This document shows, piece after piece, positions 126 through 6,727 of a DNA stretch of 6,926 nucleotides (positions are counted from its first letter, which is position 1; each line of letters opens with the position of its first letter). The stretch covers positions 1 through 6,926 of the forward strand of contig JBFLYA010000196.1 in assembly GCA_040757115.1 (NCBI GenBank), in the 5' to 3' direction. The translations under genes were made by a program, and so were the position numbers. The notes under the pieces are model-generated. The model had not been told where the DNA came from. It was given only the letters and a program-made list of their open reading frames with translations, and did not search any database. Source of the DNA: a bacterium (lineage in GTDB: Bacteria > UBA9089 > CG2-30-40-21 > SBAY01).

Positions 126-264
126 TAAGAAGTATTTTCCCCCTTTCCTACTTCCTGCTTGCTTGGTATTTGGTATGCTGAATAGTTACGATTTGCTCAA
201 GTGATGACAGAATTTACTGAGACGATAAGAAAATTAGGACCAAGCCCATATTCAACAAGGAATT

Positions 265-273
265 AAAAGGAGA
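265..273 (+). promoter_or_regulatory. Ribosome binding site of hydrogenase small subunit
   Basis: AAAAGGAGA lies nine bases upstream of the ATG at 283. This is a strong Shine-Dalgarno match with good spacing and fixes the start of the small-subunit gene. Confidence 0.75.
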
Positions 274-282
274 TAAGAAATT

Positions 283-1209
283 ATGGCAGTGAAGGTTGCA
301 GAGGAGTGGTTAAACATTTGCGGAGGGTGTGAGGTAACTATTCTGGACATTGGAGAACCATTATTAGATTTGTTACCTCAACTTGAGTTTGTCCATATGC
401 CGGTGATTATGGACCATAAATACTACGGACAGACCGGCGAAAAGGAGGAAATGGAGATACCAGAGGCTACCGTTGGTATTATCTCCGGTGGGATACGCAA
501 TGAGAAGGAAAAGCATGTAGCAGAGGAGATGTGCAAGAAATGTTCGGTAGTAATAGCTCTTGGCTCTTGTGCTTGCTATGGTGGTATCCCTGCCTTAGCT
601 AATCAGTATAATTTAGAGAAGGTTTACGATAAAGTCTATCGTGATTCAAAAACTACCGATTCTGGAGAAACGCCTTCACTTGAGCTTCCTCCCTTAACTG
701 ATCGGGTTTATGCCCTGGATGAGATGATTAAGGTTGATGTCTATATCCCTGGATGTCCGACAGCCCCGGAGATAGTAGTTGAGGCATTAACTTCTCTGCT
801 TTCGGGCAAGCCATTTACCTTACCCGAGCGGAGTGTGTGCGATGACTGCCCAACTAAACGGGAAAAGAAGGCAGTAACCTCTATAAAGAGGCCGCTTGAG
901 CCGATTATTCCGCCGGGGCAAAAATTAGAAGAATCCCGCTGTTTTATGGAGCTTGGATTTTTATGTCTTGGACCGGTGACTAAATCTGGTTGTGGTGGCT
1001 CTGCAAAAATACCTCGATGTATTAAAGCAGGAATGCCCTGTCGAGCCTGCTTTGGTCCAATCAGAAAAGGTGCTAATCCAATGGTAGATATGATGGGTGC
1101 ACTCTCTACTACTGGATTAGACCTAAAGTCAATCCTTGACAGATCAGCTACCTTTCAGAGATATATTGGTGCTCATGGCAGATTAAGACCACTGCCGAAG
1201 AGGGCATGA
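283..1209 (+). CDS. mvhG: Group 3 (MvhG-like) [NiFe]-hydrogenase small subunit
   Basis: This is the iron-sulfur electron-transfer subunit of a cytoplasmic [NiFe]-hydrogenase, 308 residues. There is no Tat signal or membrane segment. The N-terminal motif EEWLNICGGCEVTILDIGE, the GSCACYGG motif and the IPGCPTAPE motif give the four proximal [4Fe-4S] ligands as Cys13, Cys16, Cys96 and Cys158. The C-terminal third carries Cys186, 189, 220, 228, 237, 246, 253 and 256, enough for two more [4Fe-4S] clusters. The sequence and length resemble MvhG of F420-non-reducing (methyl-viologen-reducing, group 3c) hydrogenases. Those enzymes normally pass electrons through MvhD to heterodisulfide reductase HdrABC, but neither partner is in the window, so the true electron acceptor is unknown. 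A strong ribosome site at 265-273 supports the start. The large subunit follows after 55 bp. The family call is firm; the 3c assignment is likely rather than proven. Confidence 0.9.
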   Translation: MAVKVAEEWLNICGGCEVTILDIGEPLLDLLPQLEFVHMPVIMDHKYYGQTGEKEEMEIPEATVGIISGGIRNEKEKHVAEEMCKKCSVVIALGSCACYGGIPALANQYNLEKVYDKVYRDSKTTDSGETPSLELPPLTDRVYALDEMIKVDVYIPGCPTAPEIVVEALTSLLSGKPFTLPERSVCDDCPTKREKKAVTSIKRPLEPIIPPGQKLEESRCFMELGFLCLGPVTKSGCGGSAKIPRCIKAGMPCRACFGPIRKGANPMVDMMGALSTTGLDLKSILDRSATFQRYIGAHGRLRPLPKRA

Positions 1210-1253
1210 CATAGGAGAATAAGATATATACGACATATATGACTTATAAGAAA

Positions 1254-1260
1254 AAGGAGA
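1254..1260 (+). promoter_or_regulatory. Ribosome binding site deciding the large-subunit start
   Basis: AAGGAGA ends four bases before the ATG at 1265. An in-frame TTG at 1262 would leave only one base of spacing, so the ATG at 1265 is preferred as start. Confidence 0.75.
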
Positions 1261-1264
1261 TTTG

Positions 1265-2707
1265 ATGGGTAAAAAGATCATCATACAACCAGTAACCCGA
1301 ATTGAGGGGCATGCTAAAGTGACCATTCAATTGGATGACACGGGGAATGTACAGGAGACAATGGTTAATGTTGTTGAACTGCGTGGCTTTGAGAAATTCT
1401 GCCAGGGCAGGCCAGTGGAGGAACTGCCCAGGATTGTAACCAGTATCTGTGGTGTTTGTCCCTGGTCGCATCATTTAGCCAGTGCTAAAGCAAATGATGC
1501 CGTTTTTGGGGTGGAGATTCCTTCTGCGGCTAAAAAACTCAGGGAATTGGCGAATGCTATTGCCTTTACCGAAGAGCATATCCTTCATTTCTATTTTTTA
1601 GCCGGGGCAGATTTTGTTATTGGACCAGATGCGGATTATTCAATTAGAAATGTCATCGGTATTGCTCAAAAACTCCCTGATGTGGCTAAACAGGTGGTTA
1701 GATGCAGGCATCTGGGTGCTCAGATGCTGGAAATCTTAAGTGGTAAATCCATTCATCCAGTAGCGGCTGTGCCTGGCGGATTCAGTAAAGCTTTAACTAC
1801 ACAAGAAAGGGATGAGATGAAGACGAAGGCTATGGAAATATTAGAGCTGGCGAAGTTCTCGATTGACTTTGCGAAGAAGAATATCTTCCCACCATTCCTT
1901 GAGGCAGTCCAGACTTTGGGGGTGATAAAGACAGGCTTTCTGGGCACGGTTAGAGAGGACGGCCGCCTTGACCTTTATGACGGCAGATTAAGGATGATGC
2001 AAGCAGATGGGAGTTATGAAGACTTTAGCTATGACCAATACACTGATTATATTGCAGAACATATTGAGCCGTGGACATATTTGAAGTTTCCCTATATGAG
2101 AAAAGCAGGAGGCTTTTCAATGGATTTAGCCAACCCTGTGGGGATATACCGCACCAATACTCTGGCAAGAATCAATGTTTGCGATAAGATTGGGACACCG
2201 CTTGCTCAAAGTGAGCTTGAGGAATTTAGGGCTAATTTTCGCAGGCCAGCTCAGTTGACCCTACTTTATCATTGGGCACGCTTGATTGAATTGCTCTACA
2301 ATGCCGAGCATATTGTTGATCTTCTATCTGACCCGGAGATTACCAGCACAGATATCCGCAAGTCAGTTACACCCAGAGCAAGCCGTGGAGTAGGCTGTGT
2401 AGAGGCACCCAGAGGGACATTAATCCATGACTATGAGACGGATGAAAATGGTCTGGTTACCAATGTTAATTTAATTGTAGGCACGACCCATAACAATGCA
2501 CCCATAAATATGTCGGTCAAGAGAGCGGCAATGGATAACATTAAGGATGGCAAATACGACCAGGGGATACTTAATCGGGTTGAGATGGCAATTCGTGCTT
2601 ATGACCCCTGTCTTTCCTGTGCTACCCACGACTTAGATGGCAGATTGCCGGTGAGAATAGACTTTATTAATCCAGCAGGGGAGATAATAGATAGTTTAAG
2701 GAATTAA
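1265..2707 (+). CDS. mvhA: Group 3 (MvhA-like) [NiFe]-hydrogenase large (catalytic) subunit
   Basis: This is the H2-activating subunit that holds the Ni-Fe(CN)2CO site, 480 residues from the ATG at 1265. An upstream in-frame TTG at 1262 is too close to the ribosome site. The N-terminal VTRIEGH motif lies at residues 10-16. The L1 motif SICGVCPWSHH gives Ni/Fe ligands Cys62 and Cys65. The L2 motif DPCLSCATH near the C-terminus gives Cys449 and Cys452. Both cysteine pairs are intact, so the protein should bind the bimetallic site. After His455 there is a 25-residue tail, which the maturation protease would remove once nickel is in place, and a candidate protease is the next gene. The match to MvhA is good through RGFEKFCQGRPVEELPRIV and LHFYFLAG. 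It is predicted to be cytoplasmic, paired with the small subunit upstream. What is unusual is its maturation neighbourhood: HydG- and HydE-type enzymes rather than the usual hypBCDEF set. Confidence 0.92.
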   Translation: MGKKIIIQPVTRIEGHAKVTIQLDDTGNVQETMVNVVELRGFEKFCQGRPVEELPRIVTSICGVCPWSHHLASAKANDAVFGVEIPSAAKKLRELANAIAFTEEHILHFYFLAGADFVIGPDADYSIRNVIGIAQKLPDVAKQVVRCRHLGAQMLEILSGKSIHPVAAVPGGFSKALTTQERDEMKTKAMEILELAKFSIDFAKKNIFPPFLEAVQTLGVIKTGFLGTVREDGRLDLYDGRLRMMQADGSYEDFSYDQYTDYIAEHIEPWTYLKFPYMRKAGGFSMDLANPVGIYRTNTLARINVCDKIGTPLAQSELEEFRANFRRPAQLTLLYHWARLIELLYNAEHIVDLLSDPEITSTDIRKSVTPRASRGVGCVEAPRGTLIHDYETDENGLVTNVNLIVGTTHNNAPINMSVKRAAMDNIKDGKYDQGILNRVEMAIRAYDPCLSCATHDLDGRLPVRIDFINPAGEIIDSLRN

Positions 2708-2715
2708 AAAAGGTT

Positions 2716-3216
2716 ATGCTTGATTATTACGAAAAGCGTGTGCTTATTTTAGGTTGTGGAAATATTCTATTTGGGGATGATGGATTTGGGCCAGCTGTGA
2801 TAGAGTATCTTCAGAAACACTATGACCTGCCTCAAGATGTAGCAGTAATAGATGTAGGCAGTGGTGTGCGAGGGGTACTGTTTAATCTATTACTCTCTGA
2901 AATAAAGCCGCAAAAGATTATTATCGTTGATGCTATAGACACAGGTAGAAAGCCAGGTGAGGTTTTTGAGGTAGCAATTGAGGATTTACCGAAAAATAAG
3001 GTTGATGACTTCTCGATGCATCAACTTCCAACCTCAAATCTACTCAGAGAACTTAAGGTGTTAGGTCAGGTAGAGGTAAAACTCATTGCCGCCCAGGTAG
3101 AAAACATACCAGAAATGGTTCAGCCAGGGCTCTCTAAGAGATTATCTGAGGCGATACCTATAGCGTGTGAGATAATAATGTCTGACTTGTCCGACAGGTC
3201 TGACAAGTCCGACTGA
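2716..3216 (+). CDS. [NiFe]-hydrogenase maturation protease (M52 / HycI-HybD type)
   Basis: This nickel-dependent endopeptidase cleaves the C-terminal tail of the large subunit after the DPCxxCxxH motif, closing the active site. It has 166 residues. The N-terminal signature GCGNILFGDDGFG (residues 13-25) is diagnostic. The expected metal ligands are the acid in GDDG (Asp21/22), Asp72 in IIIVDAID, and His102 in MHQLP. Its position eight bases after the large-subunit stop and the 25-residue tail on that subunit make it the dedicated protease. The ribosome site is modest (AAAAAAGG just before the ATG). The last residues, MSDLSDRSDKSD, are unlike the family and are encoded by the 9-bp repeat array starting at 3181, which also supplies the stop codon. 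The true family-like C-terminus is therefore about ten residues shorter. The tail is probably tolerated rather than functional. Confidence 0.88.
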   Translation: MLDYYEKRVLILGCGNILFGDDGFGPAVIEYLQKHYDLPQDVAVIDVGSGVRGVLFNLLLSEIKPQKIIIVDAIDTGRKPGEVFEVAIEDLPKNKVDDFSMHQLPTSNLLRELKVLGQVEVKLIAAQVENIPEMVQPGLSKRLSEAIPIACEIIMSDLSDRSDKSD

Positions 3217-3225
3217 TCTGATAAA
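3181..3225 (+). repeat. 9-bp tandem repeat array 1 (five units)
   Basis: Five degenerate 9-bp units, TCTGACTTG, TCCGACAGG, TCTGACAAG, TCCGACTGA and TCTGATAAA, run through the end of the protease gene and its TGA stop. The last unit merges into the AAAGGAGA ribosome site of the next gene. Because the period is a multiple of three, the array is translated as repeated SDx tripeptides. Confidence 0.85.
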
Positions 3226-3230
3226 GGAGA
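3223..3230 (+). promoter_or_regulatory. Ribosome binding site of four-helix-bundle suffix gene
   Basis: AAAGGAGA is placed eight bases before the ATG at 3239. Its AAA is the last three bases of repeat array 1. Confidence 0.7.
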
Positions 3231-3238
3231 AAGATTCT

Positions 3239-3808
3239 ATGAACCATAACCTAATTCCACCTCACGGCGGATACCGTAATCTCCGTAGTTTCCAGACCGC
3301 ACAATTAGTCTATGATGCGACGGTTATCTTTTGCAATCGCTTTATTGAGAAATATTCGCGCACTCACGACCAAATGATACAGGCCGCCCGTAGCGGTGTG
3401 CAAAATATTGCTGAAGGCAGTATGGCTTCTGCAACCTCAAAGAAGATTGAACTTAAATTAACAGGAATTGCAAGAGCCAGCCTTGAAGAACTGGTGCTTG
3501 ATTACGAGGATTTCTTGCGTCAGCATGGATTGAACAGATGGGATAAAGACTCACCTGAAGCACTTGCTGTAAGGAGAAGATATAAGTCTGACCAGTCAGA
3601 CAAGTCAGACCTGTCTGACCCTTACTGCATCAAGCAAGTTTCATCTGAGGTGGCAGCAAATACAATCATTTGCTTAATTAACCAGGCCAGTTATCTTTTA
3701 AGAAAACAGCTGCAGAAATTAGAAGAATCATTCCTTTCTGACGGTGGTTTCACAGAACGGCTATACCAGGAGCGGCAAAAAAGGAAATTTGGTAACAAGC
3801 AAGTCTGA
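3239..3808 (+). CDS. Four-helix-bundle suffix domain protein
   Basis: 189 residues, related to the 23S rRNA intervening-sequence / four-helix-bundle superfamily and of the type with an extra C-terminal suffix domain. Visible marks are the N-terminal PPHGGYRNLRSFQTAQLVYD, then the RSGVQNIAEGS motif and ARASLEELVLDYEDFL. Residues 116-128 (KSDQSDKSDLSDP) come from an internal 9-bp repeat array and form a low-complexity linker. The stretch ASYLLRKQLQKLEESFL through RLYQERQKRK matches the suffix domain. The protein is helical and soluble, with no catalytic motif. Its biochemical role is unknown to me. It interrupts a hydrogenase operon and is bracketed by repeat arrays on both sides, which suggests a spreading cassette rather than a hydrogenase part. 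The start is supported by AAAGGAGA at 3223. The stop falls inside repeat array 3. Confidence 0.85.
   Translation: MNHNLIPPHGGYRNLRSFQTAQLVYDATVIFCNRFIEKYSRTHDQMIQAARSGVQNIAEGSMASATSKKIELKLTGIARASLEELVLDYEDFLRQHGLNRWDKDSPEALAVRRRYKSDQSDKSDLSDPYCIKQVSSEVAANTIICLINQASYLLRKQLQKLEESFLSDGGFTERLYQERQKRKFGNKQV
3587..3622 (+). repeat. 9-bp tandem repeat array 2 (four units, inside a gene)
   Basis: Units TCTGACCAG, TCAGACAAG, TCAGACCTG and TCTGACCCT are translated in frame as SDQ SDK SDL SDP. It contains two perfect inverted repeats with 7-bp arms and 2-nt loops, GTCTGAC-CA-GTCAGAC at 3586-3601 and GTCAGAC-CT-GTCTGAC at 3604-3619. Confidence 0.85.
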
Positions 3809-3848
3809 CAAGTCAGACAAGTCAGAATAGTCCGACATATCCGACAAA
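3804..3848 (+). repeat. 9-bp tandem repeat array 3 (five units)
   Basis: Units TCTGACAAG, TCAGACAAG, TCAGAATAG, TCCGACATA and TCCGACAAA. The first unit contains the stop codon of the four-helix-bundle gene and the last merges with the AAAGGAGAT ribosome site of the next gene. GTCTGAC-AA-GTCAGAC at 3803-3818 is a perfect inverted repeat. Confidence 0.85.
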
Positions 3849-3854
3849 GGAGAT
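3846..3854 (+). promoter_or_regulatory. Ribosome binding site of the HypA-like gene
   Basis: AAAGGAGAT stands nine bases before the ATG at 3864, and its AAA is the end of repeat array 3. This supports the short HypA-like reading frame as a translated gene beginning with MHEW. Confidence 0.7.
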
Positions 3855-3863
3855 CTTTAATTT

Positions 3864-4106
3864 ATGCATGAATGGGGAATTACACAAGAGGCAATAGATG
3901 AAGTCATTAAGATAGCTAATAAGAACGGCGTGAGCAAGGTAACCAGGGTCTCTTTATCCGTAGGCGAGGACGACCATTTAACACCTGATGCAATAAAGTT
4001 ATGCTTTGAATGCCTGGGGAAAGGGACAATGGTTGAAAGGAGTGAATTGGAGATTAAAAAGGGCGATGGCCAGGGGATTACTATTGAAGTTGTAGAAGGA
4101 GAGTAG
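3864..4106 (+). CDS. hypA: Short HypA-like nickel chaperone lacking the zinc-finger domain
   Basis: HypA delivers nickel to the [NiFe]-hydrogenase large subunit. This protein has 80 residues, against about 113-120 for the family. The N-terminus MHEWGITQEAIDEVI carries the nickel-binding Met1-His2-Glu3 start. The core VTRVSLSVGEDDHLTPDAIKLCFECLGKGT and the strand SELEIKK match the HypA nickel domain. The usual insert with two CxxC pairs that binds structural zinc is absent: the chain goes from LEIKKGDGQ directly to ITIEVVEGE, which looks like the normal C-terminal strand. The loss is therefore internal and neat, not a cut end, and no second frame supplies the missing part. Only Cys47 and Cys50 (in LCFEC) remain; they lie in the helix where HypA often has one or both. 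Its position between the structural genes and the HydG/HydE genes supports a role in maturation. Nickel delivery is inferred. Confidence 0.75.
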   Translation: MHEWGITQEAIDEVIKIANKNGVSKVTRVSLSVGEDDHLTPDAIKLCFECLGKGTMVERSELEIKKGDGQGITIEVVEGE

Positions 4107-4151
4107 TCTGACTTGTCTGACCTGCCTGACCTGTCAGACTTGTCTGACTAA
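4107..4151 (+). repeat. 9-bp tandem repeat array 4 (five units)
   Basis: Units TCTGACTTG, TCTGACCTG, CCTGACCTG, TCAGACTTG and TCTGACTAA start on the base after the HypA-like stop codon and fill nearly the whole spacer to hydG. GTCAGAC-TT-GTCTGAC at 4133-4148 is a perfect inverted repeat. Unlike arrays 1 and 3, no AAAGGAG follows it. Confidence 0.85.
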
Positions 4152-4161
4152 AATAAAAAAG

Positions 4162-5544
4162 ATGACTAACGAGATAATTAACCAGGAAAAGTTCAACGAA
4201 ATCCTACAAAAGACAAAGAACCCAACCCCTGAGCTAATCAAAGATATCCTTGATAAGGCTAACGAAAAACAGGGACTAAACTTAGAAGAGATTGGATTCT
4301 TAGTCAATGCAGATAGTCCGCAACTGATGGCTGAGATCTATGAGACTGCCGGAAGGATTAAGGATGAGATCTATGGTGAACGGCTGGTATTTTTTGCTCC
4401 ACTTTATGTTTCAAACTTTTGCATCAATGATTGTGCCTACTGCAATTATCACCTCAGCAATCGAGAGCTAACCCGTCACAGATTGACATTAGAAGAGGTC
4501 CAGGAGCAGACAGAGCTCTTACTTAAGATGGGGCACAAAAGGGTGCTGCTTGAGCTGGGTGAGGACCCAATTAATAACCCGATAGATTATGTGGTGGAGG
4601 TCATAGAAAAGATATATTCGGTTAGACTGCCGGTTGGTAATATTAGAAGGATAAATGTCAATATCGGGGCTACCACTGTAGAGAACTATAAGAAGCTAAA
4701 GCAAGCAGGAATAGGCACCTATCAACTCTTTCAGGAGACATACCATCAGGAGACCTACCAGAGATTACACCGTGGTCCAAAGGCAGATTATATCAGGCAA
4801 TTGACAGCCCACGAGCGCGCCTTTGAGGCAGGGATTGACGACCTGGGACTGGGGGTCTTATTTGGACTTTATGACTGGCGGTTTGAGGTATTAGCTCTGG
4901 TATCCCATGCCCAATACTTCGAGCAAAGATATGGGGTAGGACCGCATACCTTCTCTGTGCCGCGTTTTCGGGAAGGCTCAACCATTAGCTATCATCCTGA
5001 CCGCTATAAAGTAAGCGATGCTGACTTTCTCAAGATTATTGCCATACTAAGGTTAGCAGTGCCCTATACCGGTATGATTATCTCTACCCGTGAAACTCCA
5101 AAGATAAGGAAGATTGCCTATAGGATTGGCATCTCCCAAACATCAGCTGGGTCAGTAACTACAGTAGGAGGATATGGAAGGGATAATGGTAACGGGCAAT
5201 TTACGGTTTATGACCAGCGTTCATTAAAAGAGGTTATCTCTACGGTCTTACAGGATAGGTTATTACCCAGTTTTTGCACAGCTTGTTATCGTCGTGGTCG
5301 AACGGGTGATGTCTTTATGGGTCTGGCAAAGCCGGGTGAGATTCACAACTTCTGTCGGCCTAATGGACTACTTACCTTCGCTGAATATTTAGAGGATTTT
5401 GCCAATAAATCTAATGGATTGTATCAAAAGGGCTATGAGGTAGTAAATTTTTACCTGAACAAGATGGAAGATGAAAATCTGCGCCATCAAACAGAAAAAT
5501 ATTTAAAGAGGATTAAAGAGGGGAAAAGAGACCTGTATTTCTAA
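4162..5544 (+). CDS. hydG: HydG-type radical SAM tyrosine lyase (CO/CN-forming)
   Basis: HydG cleaves tyrosine by radical SAM chemistry to p-cresol and dehydroglycine, then makes CO and cyanide bound to an iron, the synthon for the [FeFe]-hydrogenase H-cluster. This 460-residue protein is full length. The radical SAM cluster motif is CINDCAYC with Cys87, Cys91 and Cys94. The motifs LFQETYHQETY, GIDDLGLGVLFGLYD and VPYTGMIISTRE are close to known HydG. His262 in GVGPHTFSVPR corresponds to the ligand of the labile fifth iron. The C-terminal cluster motif CTACYRRGRTG...HNFC has Cys372, Cys375 and Cys398 in the expected CX2CX22C spacing, so the CO/CN-forming site is intact; this separates it from ThiH, which lacks it. 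It ends in the typical RDLYF. No clear Shine-Dalgarno precedes the ATG. The surprise is the setting: a [NiFe]-hydrogenase operon, with a HypC-HydE fusion four bases downstream and no HydA or HydF in the window. Confidence 0.93.
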   Translation: MTNEIINQEKFNEILQKTKNPTPELIKDILDKANEKQGLNLEEIGFLVNADSPQLMAEIYETAGRIKDEIYGERLVFFAPLYVSNFCINDCAYCNYHLSNRELTRHRLTLEEVQEQTELLLKMGHKRVLLELGEDPINNPIDYVVEVIEKIYSVRLPVGNIRRINVNIGATTVENYKKLKQAGIGTYQLFQETYHQETYQRLHRGPKADYIRQLTAHERAFEAGIDDLGLGVLFGLYDWRFEVLALVSHAQYFEQRYGVGPHTFSVPRFREGSTISYHPDRYKVSDADFLKIIAILRLAVPYTGMIISTRETPKIRKIAYRIGISQTSAGSVTTVGGYGRDNGNGQFTVYDQRSLKEVISTVLQDRLLPSFCTACYRRGRTGDVFMGLAKPGEIHNFCRPNGLLTFAEYLEDFANKSNGLYQKGYEVVNFYLNKMEDENLRHQTEKYLKRIKEGKRDLYF

Positions 5545-5548
5545 AAAT

Positions 5549-6727
5549 ATGTGTTACGCTATACCGGCTAAGGTTGTTGAAATAAATGATAATATAGTTA
5601 CTGTTGATTACTTTGGGGAAAAGAGGAAGGCAAGAAATGACTTCTTTAAATTAACCCCAGGCGAGTATGTCTATGCTCAGGGCGGATTTATCATCCGACA
5701 GATACCTACCCCGGATGCCCTTTCTATCCTTAATACATGGCAAGATTACTTCTTCAAACTCAAAGAAACTGACTTAAGACTTACCCGCGAATCCAAAACC
5801 CTTTACCAACAAGCAAATTCTATTCGACAAAAACATCTGGGTAATGCCTGCTGTGTGCATGGAATTATAGAATTTTCTAACTGGTGTCAAAATAACTGCC
5901 TTTACTGTGGACTGCGTAGAGATAACACGGAAATTAAACGCTACAGAATGCAACCAGAAGAGATAATTGAACATTGTGCCTATGTGGTTAATGAATTAAA
6001 TTTTAAGGCATTAGTTTTACAATCAGGAGAAGACCTCTGGTATACAGAGGAAAAACTAATAACCATTGTTGAAAATATTATGAGGCGGACGCCTGTTTTG
6101 CTGATATTAAGTCTGGGCGAAAGGGATATAGCAATTTATGAGAGATTGTATGATGCAGGTGCTCGAGCAGTGCTTATTAGATTTGAGACAAGCAATCCGC
6201 AGCTTTATGAGAGATACAGACCCAACCATAAACTGAAAGATAGAATTAATTTGGTTAAGGAGTTATATCAGCTTGGTTATCTTATCTTTAGCGGATTTTT
6301 AGTCGGGTTACCGCAACAGACAGAGGAAGATATTCTTAACAATCTTGAGTTAACCGCCTCTCTTAATGCCGAGATGTTTTCTTTTGGTCCATTCATCCCT
6401 CATCCTCAGACACCCCTGAGCAATGCCGAAAAGCCATCCCTTGAAACGGCATTAACTACTGTCGCTCGGGCAAGGATAAGGTATCCTCAATCAAGGATAC
6501 TGGTGACTACTGCCTTAGAGACCATTGATAAGGAAGAAGGTCTAAAACGCGGTCTTTTGAGTGGTGGAAATTCTCTAATGATTAATCTTACCCCACAAAA
6601 ATATCGCCCCTTTTACGACATCTACCCAGGTCATACAGATGGAAATAAAACCTTTTCTGATAAGATAGAAGAAGTCGTAACATTATTGCAATCCATTGGC
6701 AGAGCACCTACAGATTTAGGGTTGTGA
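5549..6727 (+). CDS. hydE: HypC-HydE fusion protein
   Basis: 392 residues in two parts. Residues 1-70 are a complete HypC-like domain: MCYAIPAKVVEI with the essential Cys2, then the VDYFG strand, the PGEYVYAQGGFIIRQI strand and the final helix DALSILNTWQDYF. HypC carries the Fe(CN)2CO unit with HypD and delivers it to the large subunit. Residues from about 100 on are a HydE-type radical SAM enzyme: IIEFSNWCQNNCLYCGLRRDN gives the CX3CX2C ligands Cys113, Cys117 and Cys120, followed by KRYRM, LVLQSGEDL, SLGERD, GFLVGLPQQTEEDI, GPFIPHPQTPL and a terminal YRPFYDIYPGH, all typical of HydE. There are no cysteines for the optional second HydE cluster. The short N-terminal helical region of HydE appears to be partly replaced by the HypC helix. 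The start codon is four bases after the hydG stop, so the two are likely translationally coupled. A shared frame without stops makes this a true fusion. The role in [NiFe] assembly is inferred. Confidence 0.9.
   Translation: MCYAIPAKVVEINDNIVTVDYFGEKRKARNDFFKLTPGEYVYAQGGFIIRQIPTPDALSILNTWQDYFFKLKETDLRLTRESKTLYQQANSIRQKHLGNACCVHGIIEFSNWCQNNCLYCGLRRDNTEIKRYRMQPEEIIEHCAYVVNELNFKALVLQSGEDLWYTEEKLITIVENIMRRTPVLLILSLGERDIAIYERLYDAGARAVLIRFETSNPQLYERYRPNHKLKDRINLVKELYQLGYLIFSGFLVGLPQQTEEDILNNLELTASLNAEMFSFGPFIPHPQTPLSNAEKPSLETALTTVARARIRYPQSRILVTTALETIDKEEGLKRGLLSGGNSLMINLTPQKYRPFYDIYPGHTDGNKTFSDKIEEVVTLLQSIGRAPTDLGL

Follow-up and report, generated by a model that had tools for sequence, protein, structure and literature searches.

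Which enzymes provide the CO and CN ligands of a [NiFe]-hydrogenase whose genes lie in one operon with HydG and a HydE-like protein? This question is raised by the window analyzed here, an entire contig of 6926 bp. We propose that HydG and a HypC-HydE fusion protein take the place of HypD, HypE, and HypF in an alternative pathway, in which they produce and supply the Fe-CO-CN half of the [NiFe] site (probability roughly 0.87). The genomic evidence for this reading is strong; its chemical steps are inferred and rest on no experiment, which applies most of all to where the second cyanide comes from.

Gene content of the locus

All six genes that the first-pass annotation had placed on the forward strand were found (Table 1), and the gene-family similarities in the window are far beyond chance. 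The series is not uninterrupted as had been claimed, since an ORF of the 23S rRNA IVP type lies between the protease gene and hypA. It has GTCTGAC repeats on both sides, exists in a shorter version in the sister genome G001, and is probably an unrelated insertion. G001, a congener, has the same gene order, which continues upstream with mvhD and the gene for a 1485-aa HdrA, and is followed downstream by a formate-THF ligase gene. A scan for promoters and terminators gave hits at chance level only.

Table 1. Features of the 6926-bp window.
Feature	Position	Strand	Evidence
mvhD 3' end (electron-transfer subunit), C-terminal tail only (..RFAQVMTEFTETIRKLGPSPYSTRN)	190..266	+	Compared with full-length mvhD of G001 (L025 14058-14492)
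[NiFe]-hydrogenase small subunit, MvhG/VhuG-like, 308 aa	283..1209	+	Pfam Oxidored_q6 104 bits; NCBIfam VhuG 223 bits (best NCBIfam)
[NiFe]-hydrogenase large subunit, group 3c MvhA/VhuA-like, 481 aa	1262..2707	+	VhuA 462 bits
HycI/FrhD-type maturation protease	2716..3216	+	TIGR00072 134 bits, cut-off 47
Four-helix-bundle '23S rRNA IVP'-type ORF, 189 aa	3239..3808	+	TIGR04258 and TIGR02436 over cut-off
HypA without zinc-finger loop, 80 aa	3864..4106	+	Pfam HypA 54 bits; alignment
HydG, complete	4162..5544	+	TIGR03955 546 bits, cut-off 312
HypC-HydE fusion, 392 aa	5549..6727	+	HupF_HypC and HydE models, alignments, AlphaFold model

The large subunit contains all four Ni-Fe cysteines in its L1 CxxC (TSICGVCPWSH) and L2 DPCxxCxxH (YDPCLSCATHD) motifs and ends in a cleavable C-terminal extension. 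As an MvhA-like protein with the L1/L2 cysteines that is linked to MvhG, MvhD, and HdrA, it qualifies as a member of group 3c, and it is 69% identical to its MvhA counterpart in a sister-genus genome that lacks the fusion. Throughout the genus the L1 arginine is replaced (TSICGVC vs xRICGVC). HypA, the sole HypA match in the source genome, retains the N-terminal MHE nickel site. The missing L1 arginine and HypA zinc loop in this genus could mean that the [NiFe]-hydrogenases are inactive relics, or that HydG and HypC-HydE build an unknown cofactor for some other target. We see only a very slim chance of this, as the catalytic cysteines are all retained in those fusion-linked large subunits that were read at full length, hydrogenases of three groups (3b, 3c, and 4) are linked, and HycI and HypA are co-conserved.

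HydG had been described as full-length, and its model score and intact motifs bear this out. The radical-SAM Cx3Cx2C motif reads CINDCAYC, and the C-terminal Cx2Cx22C motif of the auxiliary, synthon-building cluster reads CTACYRRGRTGDVFMGLAKPGEIHNFC. In the tree, this HydG falls inside a clade of fusion-linked HydGs with a support of 100/100.

The HypC-HydE fusion protein

HypC-HydE was confirmed to be one continuous fusion, with the HypC domain at residues 1 to ~66 and the HydE domain at ~79-384. The HypC domain scores 48.3 bits with Pfam HupF_HypC (cut-off 28.5) and starts with Met-Cys; Cys2 is invariant among the fusions. The conserved histidine of HypC (E. coli VHVGFA) is missing and replaced by Gln44, which is likewise invariant in the fusions.

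The HydE domain of the window lies slightly below the TIGR03956 cut-off (251.0 vs 254.6 bits), and the members of the fusion family straddle it (218-271 bits). Its radical SAM Cx3Cx2C motif (C113/C117/C120 in the window) is invariant among fusions, as is Cys102. At the position of Tm Arg54, all 26 tested fusions carry His (His104 in the window), whereas all 11 ordinary HydE proteins carry Arg. A single branch with a support of 100/100 splits the fusion HydE domains from ordinary HydE in the tree. The AlphaFold model of the fusion is of high confidence (pLDDT 91, pTM 0.90), and a structure search matched residues 83-391 to T. maritima HydE (5few) with a Z of 42.5 and an rmsd of 1.6 over 306 residues. 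This search covered the HydE domain only and barely tested the HypC domain.

Maturation genes in the source genome

The first-pass annotation had suggested looking for hydA, hydF, hypD, hypE, and hypF in the source genome, which is 99.87% complete (G001: 100%). We found no HydA, no HydF match over the cut-off, no HypD, and, using single E. coli sequences as queries, neither HypE nor HypF. The absence of hypD, hypE, and hypF had not been anticipated in the first-pass annotation. The HypE and HypF queries were sensitive enough to give 297-512 bits in sister-genus genomes, and the sister-genus genome G002 tested positive for HypD, HypE, and HypF. Because HydA/HydF and HypD/HypE/HypF are all absent, neither known maturation route can operate in the source genome.

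Several weaker matches were rejected. TIGR03918 matches occur in every genome and are not HydF; they are GTPase-domain matches of ~100 bits or less. Of the weak matches in the HypE range, those checked proved to be AIR-synthase paralogs scoring far below the hypE cut-off, and the one match checked in the HypF range is a TsaC-type protein.

Recurrence across genomes

A search for the gene order elsewhere, also suggested at the outset, revealed the linkage again in numerous genomes from several candidate phyla. MAGs assigned to several phyla encode the HypC-HydE fusion, next to genes for [NiFe] subunits belonging to groups 3b, 3c, and 4. In a first set of 24 fusion genomes, HypD/E/F were present in one only and HydG in 19. 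No HydG was seen in G020, G021, G024, G028, and G038. HydA and HydF are both missing from 10 of the 24 genomes, nine of which have HydG; G021 lacks all three. One genome (G033) combines the fusion with a classical Hyp set, the latter adjoining a different [NiFe] enzyme.

Among 384 Omnitrophota genomes, 59 encode the fusion and 139 HypD without a single overlap (expected 21, Fisher 3e-13), i.e., HypD was found in 0/59 genomes with the fusion vs 139/325 without it. This mutual exclusion is partly confounded by the shared ancestry of the genomes. HydG accompanies the fusion in 57 of the 59 genomes (Fisher 4e-23) and was not seen in the other two; these two and the five of the first set without HydG are mostly draft MAGs. 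A [NiFe] large subunit or HycI was linked at 26 of 30 Omnitrophota loci, with flanks of only 1.5 kb. Locus L181 encodes HypC, HydE, and HydG as a single chain of 915 aa, downstream of HycI and HypA. Seventeen Omnitrophota matches starting at model position ~120 might have been taken for HydE without HypC; they are short-linker HypC-HydE fusions like that of the window. Group 4-like matches in L152, L153, and L162 lack CxxC motifs and were rejected as hydrogenases.

Most of the genomes are draft MAGs, so the missing Hyp genes might be an artefact of incomplete assemblies. We give this next to no weight in view of the completeness of the source genome and G001, of the HypD distribution within a single phylum, and of the closed chromosome CP070684 (G026) and the large-contig genome G034, which show the same pattern. 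In G026, an intact group 4 [NiFe]-hydrogenase with all cysteines is accompanied by HydG and the fusion, and no HydA, HydF, HypD, HypE, or HypF was found.

The first-pass annotation had itself named an alternative, namely that HydG and HydE work for an [FeFe]-hydrogenase encoded in another part of the genome; they would then lie in this operon by chance, and an ordinary Hyp system would mature the [NiFe] enzyme. In the first set, HydA is indeed present in 13 of the 24 fusion genomes. However, several genomes that make an [FeFe]-hydrogenase encode, in addition to the fusion beside [NiFe] genes, an ordinary HydE as a distinct protein, usually adjoining HydG and/or HydF; G030, one of them, even has two HydGs. 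The linkage with [NiFe] genes recurs in many lineages. Nine further fusion genomes share with the source genome the lack of both HydA and HydF, and the source genome also lacks HypD/E/F. There, the alternative fails unless HydA, HydF, HypD, HypE, and HypF all lie in assembly gaps, and the closed G026 matches. Overall, we regard it as scarcely tenable.

A proposed pathway for the Fe-CO-CN unit

Our observations comprise the gene content, the operon linkage, the mutual exclusion with HypD, the near-obligate co-occurrence with HydG, the separate clades, and the clade-specific residues. The supply of [NiFe] ligands by HydG, as suggested in the first-pass annotation, is supported by gene content and linkage; where the ligands come from is so far an inference, as there are no isotope or infrared data. 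Going beyond that suggestion, the key protein is most likely the HypC-HydE fusion, which would replace HypD, HypE, and HypF altogether rather than merely add a CO source.

Judging from its intact motifs and the established chemistry of HydG, the window enzyme would split tyrosine and build an Fe(CO)2(CN)-cysteine synthon, the same role that HydG has in H-cluster assembly. The HydE-like domain may take up this synthon and remodel it by radical chemistry. With its altered site (Arg54 to His, the new invariant Cys) and no HydF, it presumably yields a mononuclear Fe unit and not a diiron H-cluster precursor. By homology with classical HypC, the fused HypC domain is predicted to carry the Fe unit on Cys2 and insert it into the apo large subunit; transfer of this unit to the large subunit is possible with HypC alone (PMC11565642). 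HypA, with HypB where present, would then insert nickel and HycI would trim the C-terminus, as in the classical steps.

HydG makes CN along with CO, and its product, an Fe(CO)2(CN) unit, differs from the classical [NiFe] site, which is Fe(CN)2(CO). Therefore, the pathway needs either an exchange of ligands or a further cyanide, and we identified no enzyme for either. It is conceivable that the pathway is functional yet leaves the [NiFe] iron with the Fe(CN)(CO)2 ligand set of HydG, giving a site chemically unlike that of every characterized [NiFe]-hydrogenase. The known product of HydG and the absence of HypE and HypF, the classical cyanide makers, are compatible with this, but the ligand-pocket motifs EAPRG and VGTTHNNA of the window's large subunit are identical in the 69%-identical sister-genus enzyme, whose genome has HypC and HypF and no fusion. 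We consider such a site unlikely. Alternatively, HydG could provide only CO (and iron), with cyanide derived from carbamoyl phosphate by an unrecognized HypE/HypF-like pair and an unknown scaffold in place of HypD. In its favor, some fusion genomes have weak HypE-like AIR-synthase paralogs, which reach 91-112 bits against a 252-bit cut-off; yet no HypE-like match was obtained in G000 or G001 at E 1e-10, the TsaC-type match is no HypF, and HydG produces both ligands. This possibility is quite improbable. HydG is the only recognizable CO/CN source of a widespread natural system in which HypD and HypE/HypF are undetected, and which the source bacterium shares with dozens of related genomes across several poorly known phyla.

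The CO and CN of these [NiFe]-hydrogenases, poisonous ligands of one of the oldest metal centers in biology, seem to be made and installed by radical enzymes otherwise confined to the maturation of the unrelated [FeFe]-hydrogenases, which would be a third route of hydrogenase building. We found no published description of HypC-HydE, or of HydE/HydG with [NiFe]-hydrogenases, in the literature searched, which did not cover most subscription papers and bioRxiv. If the route is confirmed, the maturation of [NiFe] and that of [FeFe] enzymes can in practice not be regarded as independent inventions, and for at least one [NiFe] pathway of anaerobes the CO is known to come from tyrosine. HydG, HypC-HydE, HypA/B, and HycI would then form a compact maturation set usable for heterologous production, and an absent HypD would be no ground for calling a metagenomic [NiFe]-hydrogenase non-functional.

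Comparison with known maturation systems

The system shares with HydE-HydF-HydG maturation of [FeFe]-hydrogenases a complete HydG and the fold of the HydE-like radical SAM domain (Z 42), but it lacks HydF and HydA, and its target is a [NiFe] large subunit. Compared to ordinary HydE, most active-site residues are kept in the fusion (Tm Q107, R159, R180, M224, M291, and Y303), whereas fusion to HypC, a clade of its own, the change of Arg54 to His, the loss of Thr134, and the new invariant Cys set it apart. HmdB, which belongs to the HmdB/Hcg maturation of [Fe]-hydrogenase, is another case in which HydE-related radical SAM enzymes help to build a mononuclear Fe-CO cofactor. There are, however, no Hcg genes or Hmd at the window locus, and the HmdB model gives only 64 bits (cut-off 321).

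With the HypABCDEF system of E. coli and C. necator, the locus has in common a HypC domain with Cys2, HypA, a HycI-type protease, and standard [NiFe] large subunits; it differs in having neither the HypD scaffold nor cyanide synthesis by HypE/HypF. Unlike classical HypC, the HypC of the window is fused to a radical SAM enzyme and has Gln in place of the conserved His. HypX, which uses formyl-THF and acts alongside HypCDEF, supplies CO under aerobic conditions. Both it and the pathway proposed here represent a dedicated source of the CO ligand, but in the latter the HypDEF machinery is wholly replaced and the presumed precursor is tyrosine.

Operon structure

The contig is 6926 bp long, and all genes of the operon lie on one strand. 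The first-pass annotation had described a series of [NiFe] small subunit, large subunit, protease, HypA-like protein, HydG and HypC-HydE; these genes are present, but an IVP-type ORF was missing from its list.

Genes of the [NiFe]-hydrogenase operon
Feature	Position	Strand	Score
Group 3c [NiFe]-hydrogenase small subunit	283-1209	+	
Group 3c [NiFe]-hydrogenase large subunit	1262-2707	+	
HycI/FrhD-type protease	2716-3216	+	
Four-helix IVP-type ORF	3239-3808	+	
Short HypA	3864-4106	+	
Full HydG	4162-5544	+	546 bits on curated model (cut-off 312)
HypC-HydE fusion	5549-6727	+	

All four Ni-Fe cysteines are present in the large subunit, which ends in a cleavable tail, and both cysteine motifs of HydG are intact. 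The congeneric sister genome G001 has more of the operon, which there reads HdrA - MvhD - MvhG - MvhA - HycI - IVP - HypA - HydG - HypC-HydE, followed by formate-THF ligase (HdrA and the ligase were named from our reading of the translations).

The L1 motif of the large subunit is TSICGVC in the source genus and PRICGVC in the sister genus; the former has lost an arginine that almost every [NiFe] large subunit conserves (RxCGxC). Positions 1-189, over which mvhD would be expected to extend upstream, instead encode the C-terminus of another IVP-type four-helix protein (..SISANIADQLRVK), and mvhD homology begins again only at ~190. The cause is either insertion of an IVP-type sequence into mvhD or misassembly of the contig end. 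The 9-nt tandem repeat GTCTGACNN occurs at four sites (3180-3239, 3577-3627, 3794-3853 and 4106-4165) surrounding hycI, the IVP ORF and hypA, where the reading frames gain SDLSDKSD-like stretches from it; it looks like a small repeat family tied to the IVP insertion. Short HypA proteins (~80 aa) from which the zinc-finger loop has been cleanly removed are encoded here, at locus L034 (9751-9993) and in the sister-genus genome G002 (L061, 353-604). Loop-less HypA adjoins HypF in G002 and HypC-HydE in many Omnitrophota.

Maturation genes in the source genome

It had been considered possible that HydG and HydE serve an [FeFe]-hydrogenase elsewhere in the genome. In the source genome (rated 99.87% complete), both HydA and HydF are absent: a PF02906 search found no HydA, and the TIGR03918 matches were not HydF, only GTPases at ~90 bits. 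HypD (PF01924 search) was not found either, nor were HypE and HypF using E. coli queries, which do pick up both proteins in sister-genus genomes (297-512 bits). With these proteins absent, neither the HydEFG/HydA nor the HypCDEF system is complete. The HypA of the operon is the only one in the genome and, judged from sequence, HydG is the only CO/CN-making enzyme recognised.

The MvhA of the sister-genus genome G003 is 69% identical to the one described here; G003 encodes HypC and HypF and lacks the fusion. G003, which is 88% complete, yielded neither HypD nor HypE, but HypD, HypE and HypF are all present in its congener G002. It looks as if the maturation machinery has been replaced around the same [NiFe] enzyme.

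Recurrence in other genomes

Co-operon placement had been taken to suggest that HydG supplies the [NiFe] site, and this linkage is found elsewhere. A scan of genome contigs with the fusion as query yielded 32 loci, of which 23 are fusions. The MAGs that contain them are labelled Omnitrophota, Margulisiibacteriota, Verrucomicrobia, 'Gammaproteobacteria', 'Deltaproteobacteria' or unclassified; the fusion adjoins [NiFe] genes under several of these phylum labels. The neighbouring [NiFe] subunit genes belong to groups 3b, 3c and 4, and HycI, HypA, HypB or HydG is often present too. Wherever a fusion-linked large subunit was read over its full length, CxxC is kept at both ends.

Only one of 24 fusion genomes examined, G033, yielded HypD, HypE or HypF; it encodes a further, classically matured enzyme with hyp genes of its own alongside. 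HydG was present in 19 of the 24. HydA and HydF are both absent from ten (G000, the source genome, G001, G019, G021, G025, G026, G027, G029, G034 and G042), and nine of these encode HydG. The closed chromosome of G026 (CP070684.1, 1.275 Mb) encodes HydG, HypA and the fusion, together with a group 4 [NiFe] large subunit whose cysteines are intact; no HydA, HydF, HypD, HypE or HypF was found on it. Genomes that do make an [FeFe]-hydrogenase often have an ordinary HydE adjoining HydG and/or HydF, plus a fusion adjoining [NiFe] genes, and G030 has two HydGs, one per set.

In 'Gammaproteobacteria' MAGs, a DsbD_2/CcdA-like membrane protein (214-277 aa), possibly involved in metal transport or thiol redox, directly precedes HypC-HydE (L030, L031, L032, L033, L040, L044); a relative at L038 (18053-18814) lies near the fusion without adjoining it.

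The fusion occurs in 59 of 384 Omnitrophota genomes, 42 with a long linker and 17 with a short linker like the one described here (the 17 were read individually; a contig end cuts one before the HypC domain). HypD exceeded the cut-off in 139 of the 384, and never together with the fusion (0 observed versus 21 expected; Fisher 3e-13). HydG accompanies the fusion in 57/59 (Fisher 4e-23), and the exclusion holds among HydG-bearing genomes alone (HypD in 0/57 with the fusion versus 22/100; 2e-5). Shared ancestry inflates these Fisher figures, but other phyla show the same pattern. Of 30 Omnitrophota loci with flanks of only 1.5 kb, 26 have a [NiFe] large subunit or HycI next to the fusion; the usual order is large subunit - HycI - (HypA) - HypC-HydE - HydG. 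Genome G121 encodes a single 915-aa HypC-HydE-HydG triple fusion (L181, 1501-4248) directly after HycI and HypA. The nickel half of the classical pathway, HypA and HypB, survives in several fusion operons, whereas HypD, HypE and HypF, its iron half, are gone.

Features of the fusion and its HydG partners

A single branch with 100/100 support separates the HydE domains of 43 fusions from 12 ordinary HydEs. Among the substrate-site positions of the T. maritima HydE structures, Arg54 (T. maritima numbering) is His in 26/26 aligned fusions and Arg in 11/11 ordinary HydEs, and Thr134 is also replaced. Most substrate-site residues (Q107, R159, R180, M224, M291, Y303) are kept, and Cys102 (numbering of the 392-aa fusion), two residues ahead of the replacing His, is invariant among fusions. 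AlphaFold models the fusion with high confidence (pLDDT 91, pTM 0.90), and residues 83-391 of the model align with T. maritima HydE (Z 42). The HypC domain retains Cys2 and has Gln in place of the conserved HypC His. A HypC His is among the predicted ATP-site contacts of the HypCD complex (2024 study, PMC11565642); we infer that this is the His replaced by Gln, dispensable once HypD is gone. The fusion-route proteins have specialised.

Seventeen fusion-linked HydGs, including the one described here, form one clade (100/100) apart from HydGs sitting with ordinary HydE. Four others fall outside it, two of them among ordinary HydGs, a scatter which indicates repeated acquisition or exchange of the HydG partner. 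Some HydG subtypes read CTAGYRC rather than CTACYR at the auxiliary-cluster motif; they occur in G027 (L130, 361-1746), L034 and L038, and their settings are [FeFe]-linked as well as fusion-linked. G027 encodes an additional, very divergent HydG-like protein.

Proposed maturation route

The following chemistry is established: HydG turns tyrosine into CO and CN and assembles an Fe(CO)2(CN)-cysteine unit that HydE goes on to process for the H-cluster, and HypC delivers Fe(CN)2CO, bound to its Cys2, to the large subunit. By analogy, HydG would make the synthon, the HydE domain of the fusion would remodel it without HydF, the tethered HypC domain would pass the remodelled unit to the [NiFe] large subunit, and HypA(/HypB) and HycI would complete the enzyme. 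This route from HydG through the HydE and HypC domains is probably the one used, and its biochemistry is still to be shown. Its weak link is the ligand count, as the HydG product has two CO and one CN, whereas iron in the classical [NiFe] site binds one CO and two CN. Either a second HydG turnover adds CN and CO is lost, giving the classical set, or the ligand set of fusion-route enzymes differs. In its ligand-pocket motifs the large subunit agrees with the 69%-identical sister enzyme, a point in favour of the classical product.

Neither a HypC-HydE fusion nor a role of HydG in [NiFe] maturation is described in the literature searched, which did not extend to subscription papers and preprints. 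A 2025 review of [NiFe] cofactor assembly (PMC12134894) holds six Hyp proteins to be necessary and the anaerobic CO source to be unknown; neither HydG nor HydE is mentioned in it. Subject to biochemical demonstration, we rate the maturation route as categorically new, assembled from known protein families.
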